A stretch of DNA of 64,000 nucleotides, from the NCBI RefSeq assembly GCF_008728635.1, contig NZ_CP044285.1, positions 4,340,001 through 4,404,000 of the forward strand, given 5' to 3'. The first letter of the stretch is position 1. Each line of letters begins with the position of its first letter. A program made the translations under genes and the position numbers. Origin of the DNA: Hymenobacter baengnokdamensis. Its GTDB lineage: Bacteria; Bacteroidota; Bacteroidia; Cytophagales; Hymenobacteraceae. A model generated the notes under the pieces. It searched no databases and was not told the origin of the DNA. It saw nothing but the letters and a program-made list of their open reading frames with translations. Positions 58,706 to 64,000 of this stretch are shown here, in pieces.

Positions 58706-58747
58706 GGGTAATGGGTAATGGGTAATGAGTAATGAGTAATGAGTAGT
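58706..58747. repeat. Six heptamer repeats touching the sugar-transferase start codon
   Basis: On the plus strand the units are GGGTAAT x3, GAGTAAT x2, GAGTAGT x1. On the minus strand they run directly into ATG at 58705. A 7-base unit is not a multiple of 3, so slipped-strand gain or loss would change frame or spacing relative to anything upstream. Confidence 0.8.
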
Positions 58748-58793
58748 AAAGAACGTCATACTTCATTGCGTTTAGTATGACGTTCTTTACTAC
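58743..58793. repeat. REP-like hairpin between the sugar transferase and ispE (copy 4 of 4)
   Basis: GTAGTAAAGAACGTCATACT (58743-58762) pairs perfectly with AGTATGACGTTCTTTACTAC (58774-58793). With one mismatch the arms extend about 4 more bases each side into the heptamers. It has CGTCATAC in place of CGTCATGC in the other copies. Confidence 0.75.
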
Positions 58794-58817
58794 CCATTAC
58801 CCACTATCCCATTCCCT

Positions 58818-59649: not shown

Positions 59650-60579
59650 TTAATTTACAATTCCCACTGCTTCCTTGCGGGCGCGGCGCTGGTTCCACTG
59701 GTCGAGCACCGGATGCACCAGCACGCTGGCCAGAATAAGAAGAGTACCGATATAAAAGCCGCCCGACATTTTTTCCTGCCCGAAGCCCGGCACCCGCAGC
59801 ACAAAAAGTGCCTGCGCCAGCACGATGCCATACACCGGCTCCAGGTTGATGGTCAGGTTCACCACGAAGGCCGAAATCCGCTTCATCAGCTCGACTGAGG
59901 ACGAAAAGGCGTACACGGTGCACACGCCCGCCAGTAGCAGCAGCCACAGCCAGTCGTAGCCGTGCCAGCCCAGCCGCAGCCCCGCGCCCTGCGTGAAATA
60001 GCGGCTATAGACCGGAAAGAACAATACGATGCTCAGGCAAGCACCCAGCATCTCGTAAAACGTCAGCCGCACCGGCGCGTGGCGCTTCACCAGCTGCGAG
60101 TTGAGCACACTGAACAGCGCCGACAGCCCCGCCGAGGCCACTGCCACCAGCAGGCCGGTAAGCTGCGTAAACTCAGCCTGCGAAATCAGGTACAAACCCA
60201 CCATCGCCAGCAACCCCAGGCCAACCTCGTAGGGCCGTACCCGCCGCCACAGCAGCAGCGGCTCCAGCAGGGATGTCCACAAAGCCAGCGTGGCCATGCC
60301 CGCCAGGCACACGCTTACCGAGGAAAGGCGGGCCGCCAGAAAAAATGTTATCCAGTGTGCTGCCACCAGCGCGCCCACGCCCAGCAGCCGCAGGGCTTCG
60401 GCCGGGGCCAGGCGCCAGCCCGTGCGCCGCGCCACCAGCAGGCCCACCAGCCCGGTGCTGGCCAGCAGCGTGCGCCAAAACACCAGCTCGACCGGCGGCA
60501 CGGTAATCAGCTTGCCCAGAATGGCCGTAAAGCCCCACAGCAGGACGATAAAATGTAGCTTGAGGTAATCTTTGAGCAT
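59650..60579 (-). CDS. EamA/DMT-superfamily transporter
   Basis: The 309-residue protein has ten hydrophobic segments in two EamA repeats. It begins MLKDYLKLHFIVLLWGFTAI and has the typical FWRTLLASTGLVGLL and later VVNLTINLEPVYGIVLAQAL (EamA family pattern: NLxPVxA). It is an inner-membrane metabolite exporter or importer; the substrate cannot be told. It is convergent with ispE with only 4 bases between stop codons, and lies downstream of lptG on the same strand. Confidence 0.87.
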   Translation of the reverse strand: MLKDYLKLHFIVLLWGFTAILGKLITVPPVELVFWRTLLASTGLVGLLVARRTGWRLAPAEALRLLGVGALVAAHWITFFLAARLSSVSVCLAGMATLALWTSLLEPLLLWRRVRPYEVGLGLLAMVGLYLISQAEFTQLTGLLVAVASAGLSALFSVLNSQLVKRHAPVRLTFYEMLGACLSIVLFFPVYSRYFTQGAGLRLGWHGYDWLWLLLLAGVCTVYAFSSSVELMKRISAFVVNLTINLEPVYGIVLAQALFVLRVPGFGQEKMSGGFYIGTLLILASVLVHPVLDQWNQRRARKEAVGIVN

Positions 60580-60718
60580 CGTCTTTAATGGGAGGAATAC
60601 AAAAATGTGCTAATGAGAAAATGCTCCGACAACGCCTGGCAAGGTATCCGCTTCCCGAGCAAACCAACTTTTTAATCTCCGCATTTACCACATTCTCCCT
60701 TTTTCACATTCCTAAAAG

Positions 60719-61798
60719 CTACTTGGGCACCACCCGGTACAGAAACACCCCGATAACTGAGAATACCATCCCCGGCACCCAGGCCGCCAGCATGGGCGGC
60801 AGGCTGCCCACCGAAGCCAGGTTGCGCGAGAGCATCACGAAGATGATAAAGACAAACGCCAGCACGAAGCCCAGCGCAATTTGCCCGCCCACGCCGGCGC
60901 GGCTCTTGCGGGCGCTTAGCACCACGCCAATCATGGTAAGGATAATCGTATCGAAGGGGTAGGCATAGCGTTCGTACTTCACGCTCAGATACTGGGCCGT
61001 GTCGTTGGCGCCGCGCATGATTTTGGTGGCAATCAGGTCGTTGAGCTCGGGCGAAGTCAGCGTTTCGGCCAGGCGATAGGTGCTGGCAAAGTCCTTGGGG
61101 TACAGGTTGAGCGTGGTATCGCGGGCCGGAATAGTTTGCAGGGTTTCCCCGGTTTGGCCGTGAAAGGTGCGCACCGTCTGGGGCGTCATTTTCCATGCCT
61201 GCTTGGTCGAGTCCCACGTCAGGGCATCGGCCGTAAGGCGGCGGCGCAGAATGGTGCTGTCGATGGTTTCGAGCGCGAAACGGTAGCCGATGTTGTGCTC
61301 GGCATCGTAGCTTTCGAGGTAGGCGTAGCTGCGCGGCCCGATTTTGACGTGAATATTCCGCCCCTCAAACTTCCAGGGTTCCTGCACGTGCAGGTTTTCG
61401 AACTTCACTATCTCCTTGGTACCCTTCGGAATAACCCAGCTGATGAGCCCAAAGGTGAGTACCGCAATCACGCCCGCCCCCATGGCATAGGGCAGCAGTA
61501 GCCGCTCAAAGCTCATGCCGCTGGCCAGCATGGCCACCAGCTCGGTGCGCGCGGCCAGCCGCGACGTCACAAACACCACCGCGATAAAGATGGTGATGGG
61601 TGCCAGCAGATTGGCAAAATACGGAAAAAGGTAGATGTAGTAATGCGTAAAAACGTGCCAGAACGTGAGGTTGTGGTGCAGAAAGTCGTCGTTCTTCTCC
61701 GTGTAGTCAATCACGCAAATCACCGACACGAGCATCAGCACCGTGAAAAAAAACGCGGTGAGAAACTTGCCGATGATGTATTTGTCGAGGATTTTCAT
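60719..61798 (-). CDS. lptG: Lipopolysaccharide export permease, LptF/LptG (YjgP/YjgQ) family
   Basis: The 359-residue protein starts MKILDKYIIGKFLTAFFFTV. It has three N-terminal membrane segments, a periplasmic beta-jellyroll segment (residues about 130-260, with WKFEGRNIHVKIGPRSYAYL) and three C-terminal segments (TIILTMIGVVLSARKSRAGV, ALGFVLAFVFIIFVMLSRNL, and AAWVPGMVFSVIGVFLYRVV). LptF/LptG pair with LptB ATPase to extract LPS from the inner membrane. Whether this is F or G cannot be fixed; Bacteroidota usually annotate this type as LptG. The first base of its start codon is the end of the inverted repeat that flanks the GxxExxY gene upstream. Confidence 0.88.
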   Translation of the reverse strand: MKILDKYIIGKFLTAFFFTVLMLVSVICVIDYTEKNDDFLHHNLTFWHVFTHYYIYLFPYFANLLAPITIFIAVVFVTSRLAARTELVAMLASGMSFERLLLPYAMGAGVIAVLTFGLISWVIPKGTKEIVKFENLHVQEPWKFEGRNIHVKIGPRSYAYLESYDAEHNIGYRFALETIDSTILRRRLTADALTWDSTKQAWKMTPQTVRTFHGQTGETLQTIPARDTTLNLYPKDFASTYRLAETLTSPELNDLIATKIMRGANDTAQYLSVKYERYAYPFDTIILTMIGVVLSARKSRAGVGGQIALGFVLAFVFIIFVMLSRNLASVGSLPPMLAAWVPGMVFSVIGVFLYRVVPK

Positions 61799-61843
61799 GA
61801 CCGCAGATTTAACGGATTTAACGGATTTCGCGGATACGCCCGC
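61798..61843. repeat. Left arm of a perfect 46-bp inverted repeat
   Basis: The arm begins TGACCGCAGATTTAACGG and contains tandem 9-mers (GATTTAACG twice, then GATTTCGCG, then GAT). It is the exact reverse complement of 62400-62445, and a looser match continues about 11 bases further inward (CGGGCTGA). Its outer base is shared with the lptG start codon. Confidence 0.9.
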
Positions 61844-61869
61844 AAGCGGGCTGACTCGCGGGGCGGGAC

Positions 61870-62379
61870 TTAAATTTGGAAGGTGGATTTGACGAATCGG
61901 CGGTATTGCAGGGAAGTACTGCCGAAGTTTAAGAGGAGGCCTACGGGCAGGCGGTAGGCTTCGAGGTAGTTGATGATTTGAGCGAAGTGGCAGTCTGTCA
62001 GGTCGGTCGTTGCTTTTAGCTCCAGTAAGATTGGCTTTTCGGGCTGTGGGCCCTCTACCATGAGGTCAACGCGGCGGCTACCAATCTGCTGCCCCCGAAA
62101 ATAGATGGGCGTTTCGACCTCACGGCGGGCCTTCATGCCCTTGCGCTCCAGCTCAATCGCCAGCGCCCGCTGATAAATTATCTCCGGGAAGCCCGTACCC
62201 AATATGCTGTGCACCCGCATCGCACAGCCAATAGCGCGATGCGTAAATGGCGTGTAGCCCGCTAAATCTACCCCATAAGCGGTGCCCGGCTCCGCCGCCA
62301 AACTACCAGGCCCGGCACCTGCATCAACCTGCACCCAATCCTCAAAACCCTCTCGCATACCCAAAATCATCAAAGTCAA
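61870..62379 (-). CDS. GxxExxY protein (PD-(D/E)XK nuclease-like)
   Basis: The 169-residue protein carries the family signature ILGTGFPEIIYQRALAIELE, with Gly63, Glu66 and Tyr69 as the GxxExxY residues. A nuclease-like core follows: Asp105 in RRVDLMVEG and Glu120-Leu-Lys122 in LLELKATTDL, a D...ExK arrangement. The end is VGLLLNFGSTSLQYRRFVKS. Family members are short, of unknown activity, scattered and often multicopy in Bacteroidota and Planctomycetota. The N-terminus is about 40 residues longer than usual; starts at 62370 or 62358 are possible. It is enclosed by the 46-bp inverted repeat, on the same strand as tgt and lptG. Confidence 0.88.
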   Translation of the reverse strand: MTLMILGMREGFEDWVQVDAGAGPGSLAAEPGTAYGVDLAGYTPFTHRAIGCAMRVHSILGTGFPEIIYQRALAIELERKGMKARREVETPIYFRGQQIGSRRVDLMVEGPQPEKPILLELKATTDLTDCHFAQIINYLEAYRLPVGLLLNFGSTSLQYRRFVKSTFQI

Positions 62380-62399
62380 AACCCTAATCAGCCCGCCCA

Positions 62400-62445
62400 G
62401 CGGGCGTATCCGCGAAATCCGTTAAATCCGTTAAATCTGCGGTCA
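62400..62445. repeat. Right arm of the perfect 46-bp inverted repeat
   Basis: Reverse complement of 61798-61843, ending AAATCTGCGGTCA. Its last three bases (62443-62445) are the tgt stop codon when read on the minus strand. Confidence 0.9.
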
Positions 62446-63573
62446 AAGGCGGCGCATCAGCTTCTCCACCATCCCCTTTTTCCACTCGCCAAACGTGCCG
62501 GCCACGATTTGCTGGCGTGCTTCCTTCACCAGCCACAGATAAAAGGTGAGGTTGTGCTGCGAGGCAATCTGCGCCCCCAGCATTTCCTTGGCCTGAAAGA
62601 GGTGGCGCAGGTAGGCTTTGGTGTAGAATGTGCTGGCGTGGCCGCCCAGCGCCTCGTCGATGGGCGAGAAGTCCAGCTCCCACTTCTTGTTGGTGACGTT
62701 GATAATGCCCTGGGTAGTGAACAGCATGCCGTTGCGGGCATTACGGGTGGGCATCACGCAGTCGAACATATCTACCCCTAACGCTATATTTTCCAGGATA
62801 TTGGCCGGGGTGCCCACGCCCATAAGGTAGCGCGGCTTGTCGGGGGGCAGAATATCGCAGACCAGCTCGGTCATCTCGTACATCAGCTCGGCGGGCTCGC
62901 CCACGCTGAGGCCGCCGATGGCGTTGCCGGCGCGGCCCTGCCCGGCCACAAACTCGGCCGATTGCCGGCGCAAATCCTTAAAGGTGCTGCCCTGCACGAT
63001 GGGGAAAAGATTCTGCTCGTAGCCGTAGAGCGGCTCGGTGGTGTCGAGGCGCTGAATGCAGCGCGTGAGCCAGCGGTGCGTCATATCGAGCGAGCGGCGG
63101 GCGTAGTCGTACTCGCAGGGCCAGGGCGTGCACTCGTCGAAGGCCATGATGATATCGGCCCCGATGCGGCGCTGAATATCCATCACGCCCTCGGGCGAAA
63201 ACAGGTGCTTGGAGCCGTCGATGTGCGAGCGGAACGTAACGCCTTCCTCCTTAATCTTGCGGGTGCCGCTGAGCGAAAACACCTGGTAGCCGCCGCTATC
63301 GGTAAGAATGGGCCGGTCCCAGCCGTTGAATTTGTGCAGGCCGCCGGCAGCTTGCAGCACGTCGAGGCCGGGGCGCAGGTACAGATGGTAGGTATTGCCC
63401 AGAATAATCTGGGCCTGCACATCCTGCTTCAGCTCGCGCTGACCCACGGCCTTCACGGTGCCGGCCGTGCCAACGGGCATAAAAATGGGCGTCTCGATAA
63501 CCCCGTGCGCGGTAGTAAGGCGGCCGGCGCGGGCCTTGGTGCCCGGGTCGTGGGCTTGTAAGTCAAACGTCAT
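62443..63573 (-). CDS. tgt: tRNA-guanine(34) transglycosylase (queuine tRNA-ribosyltransferase)
   Basis: The 376-residue enzyme swaps guanine-34 for a queuosine precursor in Asp, Asn, His and Tyr tRNAs. The substrate-binding core is intact: TDSGGYQVFSLSGTRKIKEE, MAFDECTPWP, NAIGGLSVGE, YLMGVGTP and the nucleophile region ALGVDMFDCVMPTRNARNG. The C-terminal zinc site is altered: where E. coli has CDCYTC before the RAYL motif, this protein has LGGHAS before KAYLRHL, so all three cysteines are gone although the later His (SQHNL) stays. Loss of the cysteines is, as I recall, usual in Bacteroidota. The stop codon lies in an inverted-repeat arm. Confidence 0.93.
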   Translation of the reverse strand: MTFDLQAHDPGTKARAGRLTTAHGVIETPIFMPVGTAGTVKAVGQRELKQDVQAQIILGNTYHLYLRPGLDVLQAAGGLHKFNGWDRPILTDSGGYQVFSLSGTRKIKEEGVTFRSHIDGSKHLFSPEGVMDIQRRIGADIIMAFDECTPWPCEYDYARRSLDMTHRWLTRCIQRLDTTEPLYGYEQNLFPIVQGSTFKDLRRQSAEFVAGQGRAGNAIGGLSVGEPAELMYEMTELVCDILPPDKPRYLMGVGTPANILENIALGVDMFDCVMPTRNARNGMLFTTQGIINVTNKKWELDFSPIDEALGGHASTFYTKAYLRHLFQAKEMLGAQIASQHNLTFYLWLVKEARQQIVAGTFGEWKKGMVEKLMRRL

Positions 63574-63578
63574 TCTGA

Positions 63579-63586
63579 CAAAATTA
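63579..63586 (-). promoter_or_regulatory. -7 box for tgt
   Basis: Minus-strand TAATTTTG, a full consensus match, ends only 5 bases before the tgt ATG. Transcription would begin at or next to the start codon, giving a leaderless or nearly leaderless message. Confidence 0.5.
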
Positions 63587-63595
63587 CCGCCGACT

Positions 63596-63603
63596 TACCT
63601 TTG
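63596..63603 (+). promoter_or_regulatory. -7 box for the GT2 glycosyltransferase
   Basis: TACCTTTG, a full match, ends 12 bases before the proposed start at 63616. It is only 9 bases from the divergent tgt -7 box, so the two promoters should exclude each other. Confidence 0.5.
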
Positions 63604-63615
63604 CGGGCTAATCCT

Positions 63616-64000
63616 GTGTTGTTACCCTCGCTCCCCCACCTGCCTCCCGCCTTGCTGCTGCTGCCCTTGCTACTGGTGCAGGGGTGGTTTTGGGGCCGCT
63701 ATTTCCGGCCGTTTACGCGGCGGCCGGCCGAGGCGGCAGCCACTGAGCCGGGCCCCGATGCCCGGCCGGTCTCGATTATTCTTTGCGCACACAACGAGCT
63801 GGAAAACCTGCGCGAGCTGGTGCCGCTGCTGCTGCGGCAGGACTATGCGGCCGGCTTCGAGCTGGTGCTCATCGACGACCGTAGCCAGGACGATACGTAC
63901 CTGTATGCCCAGCAGCTGAGCCAGTATTACCCTGGCCGCTTCCGGCTCGTGACGGTGACGCACACGCCGGCCGGCTTTTCGCCCAAAAAATATGCGCTTA
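63616..64000 (+). CDS. GT2-family glycosyltransferase, N-terminal part (runs off the window)
   Basis: The frame is open to the window end. A GTG at 63616 (or TTG at 63619) starts a hydrophobic N-terminal segment (PPALLLLPLLLVQGWFWGRY), followed by a GT-A domain: PVSIILCAHNELENLRELVP (residues about 53-72) and FELVLIDDRSQDDTYLYAQQ, including the nucleotide-binding DDRS. This matches membrane-anchored GT2 enzymes of the cellulose-synthase-like type common in Bacteroidota. The catalytic ED/QxxRW part lies outside the window. Start codon and substrate are uncertain. Confidence 0.8.
   Translation, partial: MLLPSLPHLPPALLLLPLLLVQGWFWGRYFRPFTRRPAEAAATEPGPDARPVSIILCAHNELENLRELVPLLLRQDYAAGFELVLIDDRSQDDTYLYAQQLSQYYPGRFRLVTVTHTPAGFSPKKYAL

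Follow-up and report, generated by a model that had tools for sequence, protein, structure and literature searches.

A small GxxExxY gene of Hymenobacter baengnokdamensis, located between tgt and lptG, is enclosed by two inverted arms built of short tandem words. The same architecture recurs around GxxExxY genes in other genomes, and arms of this kind also occur alone between other genes. Together, the framing of the gene and the lone arms point to a type of small genetic element that has not been described. The pattern is strong, and the mechanism is what we infer from it. With moderate confidence we propose a two-part system consisting of a PD-(D/E)XK-type GxxExxY protein and its cognate foldback arms, with the cassette as the gene-bearing member. 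In the open-access papers searched we found neither a paper on arms flanking GxxExxY/PDDEXK_3 genes nor a function of GxxExxY proteins.

The window, i.e., the whole stretch of DNA analysed, is 64,000 nucleotides long; the cassette and its neighbours are listed in Table 1. The two arms are exact reverse complements of 46 nt each and are separated by 556 nt. They form the longest of four inverted repeats in the whole window, and the remaining three score 18.5 to 25.5 (exact 11-nt seeds, arms within 900 nt, score of at least 18). The first-pass annotation had described this perfect 46-bp repeat, its 9-nt words, and the lone GxxExxY gene inside, and all three were recovered at the same positions. 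It had also read the arm ends as overlapping the neighbouring codons. The overlap itself is real: the tgt stop codon is the arm end at 62443-62445, and base 61798 is common to the arm and the lptG start. Judged by eye, however, the ends of other arm copies share a boundary near CCGCAG, and the T and the G at the extremes of each 46-mer look like parts of codons that match by chance. The permease gene at 60719..61798 passes the Pfam cut-off and falls under the NCBIfam cut-off for LptG. Elsewhere in the window, a further foldback at 58730-58806 has TAATGAG-type words and an inner end resembling CGTCATACT, and the lptG-EamA gap (60585-60715) contains AATGTG-like words in both orientations, which were seen by eye and are absent from the inverted-repeat scan.

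Table 1. Features of the cassette and the adjacent genes (positions in the window).
Feature	Position	Strand	Remark
lptF/lptG-family permease gene, downstream neighbour	60719..61798	-	start codon flush with arm
Left arm of perfect inverted repeat	61798..61843	+	outer end has one base in common with lptG start codon
Left-arm tandem 9-nt words (three): GATTTAACG, GATTTAACG, GATTTCGCG	61806..61832	+	
Left-arm inner hairpin, stem CCCGC/GCGGG	61839..61850	+	stem covaries across copies
GxxExxY / PDDEXK_3 gene, clade B (LGxGFxE)	61870..62379	-	TTG start assumed
Right-arm inner hairpin, stem CCCGC/GCGGG	62392..62404	-	loop unlike that of left arm
Right arm of perfect inverted repeat	62400..62445	-	tgt stop codon in outer end
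Right-arm words, same three (GATTTAACG, GATTTAACG, GATTTCGCG)	62411..62437	-	mirrored
tgt, upstream neighbour	62443..63573	-	stop codon inside arm

The encoded protein matches PF13366 (PDDEXK_3; E 2.3e-33, 115.4 bits, cut-off 22) and TIGR04256 (GxxExxY; E 6.3e-34, 116.8 bits, cut-off 35). At E 0.001 no further Pfam or NCBIfam family was matched, including Y1_Tnp and S23/TIGR02436. In an alignment of 45 sequences (that of the window and 44 others), residues E66, E76, D105, E120, and K122 are invariant; the last three had already been singled out in the first reading of the DNA and are present in 45 of 45. A profile match combined with a conserved E, D, and E-x-K is the mark of the PD-(D/E)XK superfamily, and by family match and invariant residues the protein is a putative nuclease. 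A sequence search of the PDB yielded no relative, the one match (E 0.67) being unrelated. The family assignment made earlier thus holds, whereas the length of 169 residues given with it assumes a TTG start. Profile matches begin at residue 46 and alignments with homologues at about residue 36-46; the N-terminal ~40 residues are missing from the homologues, so that the true N-terminus is uncertain.

The window cassette is found at the same site in two relatives, G020 and G027, at dS >1, and dN/dS of the gene is 0.049 versus G020, 0.064 versus G027, and 0.035 between these two. The window gene is an old one that keeps its site and evolves under purifying selection; therefore it is not freely hopping, and the cassette is not a recent insertion. 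A phage or plasmid vehicle was rejected: no confirmed relative was found on viral contigs (one search used a single protein and reached close relatives only), and 8 of 72,556 plasmid records gave a match (clade B query only). PADLOC gave no match to a known defence protein.

Inverted arms of 9-11-nt words recur around GxxExxY genes well beyond the window. In a first set of 74 genes from 36 genomes (H. baengnokdamensis and relatives), such arms straddle 55 genes at a score of at least 19, compared with 0 of 85 control windows obtained by shifting the same loci by 800 nt. The 74 remained from 92 listed matches once the 15 weakest, chiefly fragments, had been removed along with a match at a contig end and two others. 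A cross-phylum set was drawn from a collection of 84,980 species and includes Cyanobacteria, Nitrospirae, Dojkabacteria, and others, as titled in the records. Among its best 80 of 543 confirmed places (clade B), arms score at least 19 in 28 and at least 17 in 38, versus 1 of 282 shifted windows. These 80 proteins, the best of the 543, are 70-92% identical to the query, and their arms are alike across phyla, often starting with TGTCTGAAC followed by TGATT words. A held-out Bacteroidota set consisted of 70 loci out of a longer match list; one locus at the edge of a contig (L271) was removed, and of the remaining 69, 19 score at least 19 and 31 at least 17 (shifted windows, 1 of 72). Scores below 19 were obtained for 19 of 74, 52 of the best 80 of 543, and 50 of 69 genes, respectively. 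The expectation that the arm goes with GxxExxY genes elsewhere is thus borne out in all three sets. Swapped flanks score high (99% quantile 30.5 in the first set, 90% quantile 20 in the cross-phylum set); since different loci share arm families or style, they are not a clean control, and shifted windows were therefore used.

The word class of the arms follows the protein clade, with four exceptions in the held-out set. At a score of at least 19 in the first set, clade B genes have 29 GAT arms, no RAG arms, and one tie, and clade A genes 23 RAG, no GAT, and one tie, with one gene unclassed (Fisher 2.8e-15, a value that ignores relatedness and uses a word rule made on the same data). The first 74 loci served to set both the cut-off of 19 and the GAT/RAG rule; the same rule was applied to the held-out set, read at 17 and 19. 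There, at a score of at least 17, clade A has 18 RAG and 4 GAT arms, clade B 4 GAT and 0 RAG, and five loci are without a clade call. The spacing of words in GxxExxY arms has a weak maximum at 9-10 nt (identity 0.35-0.46 vs 0.26-0.31 in shuffled arms).

That the number of arm copies depends strictly on the matching gene is unsupported. In favour of a link, three genomes have more than two exact copies of GATTNAACGGATTNAACG, and two of them, H. baengnokdamensis (20) and G027 (16), have the window-type gene. Against strict dependence, G033 carries 13 exact GATTNAACGG arrays without that gene, and G020 has the gene and no exact arm-word copy, only one with one mismatch. Copies of TCGGATTNNTCGGATT were found in two genomes without any GxxExxY match (13 in G023 and 6 in G011).

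In the H. baengnokdamensis genome (one 4.43-Mb contig), an 18-mer of two words matches 28 times at up to two mismatches, some of the matches being in overlapping registers; the arm is multicopy, in line with the first-pass annotation. Each of the three TIGR04256 genes found in this genome is enclosed by a long inverted repeat, and the three repeats differ in sequence: 46 bp in the window, 81 bp and perfect at 265 kb, and 54 bp at 91% identity at 725 kb. The arm family of the window also comprises gene-less pairs, which sit between genes, and apparent single arms. Among 26 arms, a start codon (open reading frame of at least 60 codons) lies within 12 nt of the outer end in 14, of which 12 are ATG, and a stop codon (same minimum) near or inside it in 18; 4.3 (ATG 1.2) and 2.1, respectively, are expected from random positions 100-900 nt from the arms. 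Either codon is present at the outer end of 24 arms, where about 6 (6.1) are expected, and this agrees with the earlier proposal that the element settles between genes without breaking them. In each arm of the window family the words are followed by an inner hairpin of varying sequence. Its stem covaries: 139 of 145 cells are standard pairs, whereas shuffles average 108 and do not exceed 120 (29 arms, 21 distinct; four of the 29 from two relatives).

The two arms of a pair are more alike than re-paired arms (0.88 vs 0.81; reached by 1 of 20000 permutations), and the interiors of ten pairs in this genome, that of the window included, have no mutual similarity. Because these interiors are unrelated, the gene-less copies are not simple deletion derivatives, and movement of a unit of arm, interior, and arm was not seen. 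A classical MITE arising by internal deletion was rejected on the same grounds. MITEs are likewise short inverted-repeat units scattered between genes; unlike them, the interiors between GxxExxY arms are not shared, and no transposase with matching ends was present among the RAYT-type genes examined. The minimal mobile cassette initially suggested thus survives in part: its arms are multicopy and associated with the family, whereas the window copy is not recent and the interiors of gene-less copies are unrelated.

Both outer flanks are common to 52 pairs of GxxExxY loci (32 loci). The gene is therefore mostly kept at fixed sites. Identical changes in the two arms of these pairs affect 401 columns, where 59 would be expected for independent arms; a further 234 columns changed on one side and 78 otherwise; the pairs are not independent, and the delimitation of arms by likeness favours concerted change. 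Two-sided changes outnumber one-sided ones in 32 of the 52 pairs and the reverse holds in 18, e.g., 0 two-sided against 10 one-sided for L032/L033 and L102/L103 (margins counted). L027 and L124 differ by two changes common to both arms and by a third at the outermost base of a single arm. Thus, both arms tend to change together. As a separate observation, the GxxExxY stretch of L102 (G026) and L103 (G016) is identical in DNA, with flanks about 90% identical, which suggests recent exchange or conversion.

At the 725-kb site, the whole cassette differs between H. baengnokdamensis and its sister genome G005. The flanks are 83-98% identical, mostly above 90%, and the gene and the arms are both different (55-69%). 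On the left the boundary of the difference is the upstream gene's stop codon and on the right it is the start codon; the downstream gene also differs in its first codons.

The tgt-lptG junction, to which the first-pass annotation had drawn attention, was compared in 30 of 58 matching genomes. The cassette is present in three (H. baengnokdamensis, G020, and G027) and absent from 27. An inverted repeat above all 100 shuffles nevertheless occupies 22 of the 30 gaps, in G021 and G031 only just, and these foldbacks were labelled in three classes: GAT arrays, 7-nt arrays, and TCATTGCGAG/TCATGCTGAG. The last class looks like two families; TCATTGCGAG and TCATGCTGAG foldbacks are frequent at this junction in relatives (L061, L065, L066, L067, L071, L075, L077, L086, and L088), where no associated gene was identified. 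In G014 the gap is 14 nt long and, by eye, resembles the outer end of an arm. For other copies in the own genome, 20 slot comparisons with three relatives were made by eye, covering slots with both flanks inside one analysed locus. In most of them the relative has a different foldback or GAT arms of a different dialect. G005 has copy e8 in conserved form and a nearly empty slot e4 of 31 nt; in two slots the interior, a terminator or promoter, is seemingly native and the arms are different. No target-site duplication was seen by eye in these 20 comparisons, in which the slots are usually filled by other foldbacks. The tgt-lptG slot, which holds different foldback families in different species, offers natural experiments.

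In the two-part system proposed here, each arm consists of 9-11-nt words in tandem and abuts a coding boundary on its outer side; arms of the window family have in addition a hairpin at the inner end. The GxxExxY protein would recognise the word array, probably as a DNA hairpin or cruciform, and cut it. Arms, and more rarely cassettes of arm, gene, and arm, might then be copied into or swapped at intergenic slots, and repair across the foldback would keep the two arms alike. The gene stays for long at a few fixed sites, and gene-less arm pairs are dispersed as a family in the same genome. RAYT genes are comparable in their fixed sites; PMC3116915 describes them as single-copy genes whose phylogeny largely follows that of the species. 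The REPIN/RAYT system also resembles the elements described here in having a gene between inverted hairpin repeats, dispersed gene-less inverted pairs in intergenic space, and a repeat type matched to the gene type, the latter with four held-out exceptions for GxxExxY (PMC3116915). In contrast, the window protein belongs to PF13366/TIGR04256 and has no match to the Y1 HUH transposase, and GxxExxY arms are tandem arrays of 9-11-nt words with an inner hairpin.

Alternatively, the foldback might act at the RNA level, with a stem that is cut from transcripts or protects them and lets the element sit between co-transcribed genes, the protein being secondary. We regard this as unlikely. The anatomy is the same as that of the Coxiella intervening sequence (IVS), which according to PMC4990558 contains a small ORF within terminal inverted repeats that form a stem and is excised by RNase III. 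The S23 protein (TIGR02436) of such elements is an unrelated four-helix bundle, however, and the site of the window element is the tgt-lptG junction instead of 23S rRNA. Among 30 TIGR02436 genes, one per genome, 14 lie between inverted arms at a score of at least 19 (shifted windows, 2 of 59), and in 21 arms the identity is 0.68 at lag 7, compared with 0.30 after shuffling. S23 four-helix-bundle genes thus form a parallel family with strict 7-nt words, as opposed to 9-11 nt for GxxExxY. The frequent inverted repeats in tgt-lptG gaps would also suit a role in RNA, as would the predicted fold of the window transcript, which lies far below 20 shuffles (z -13); this score is not specific, because any long inverted repeat folds well. 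No Rfam match was obtained in 60500-63700 up to E 0.1, and RNA structure alone leaves unexplained both the correspondence of clade and word class and the joint difference of gene and arms at the 725-kb site.

It is likewise improbable, in our estimate, that the arms are moved or rewritten by RAYT, by template switching during replication, or by ectopic gene conversion, and merely house the GxxExxY gene. Such a mover would account for arms that persist without GxxExxY genes, for unrelated interiors, and for arms that tend to change together, as template switching at palindromes would give; moreover, the genome has two Y1_Tnp matches. Yet RAYT-type Y1_Tnp genes, examined at 10 loci out of 12 places from seven genomes, are accompanied by other inverted repeats or none, and the GAT word array is absent at all 10 loci examined, which disfavours RAYT as the mover of GxxExxY arms. 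Neutral housing does not predict a match of clade and word class in two data sets, nor like arms across phyla around proteins of the identity found among the best 80 of 543. At about 2.33 Mb of the own genome, the inverted ends of a RAYT-type gene (L349) resemble, by eye, the foldback in the G005 slot that matches L021. Finally, that an ordinary operon gene lies among common intergenic repeats by coincidence is very improbable: the gene does keep fixed sites under purifying selection, and several foldback families are common in intergenic space here, but the scarcity of arms in shifted windows (0/85, 1/282, and 1/72 against 55/74, 28/80 for the best 80 of 543, and 19/69) and the site-specific cassette difference between H. 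baengnokdamensis and G005 speak against it.

The two-part system may belong to a general class, an idea that we advance tentatively. In bacteria, intergenic foldbacks would each be read by a small protein family through words of its own period (RAYT with REPs, S23 with 7-nt words, and GxxExxY with 9-11-nt words), and these systems would compete for the same slots, rewrite both arms together, and set a genome-specific dialect of words. GxxExxY, which occurs in several phyla, would be a PD-(D/E)XK representative of this class. If GxxExxY proteins act on their own arms, a widespread family gains a testable function, the intergenic repeat content of Bacteroidota becomes easier to explain, and S23/IVS, RAYT, and GxxExxY elements fall into one framework.

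In three loci (L308, L339, and L340 of G111, G084, and G096), the GxxExxY domain continues in frame through a stretch of GAT words into a helicase that we take to be RecQ-like. The likely usual start codon of the helicase directly follows this stretch, and these loci may represent either an element that lies flush before recQ and is read through or a working fusion.
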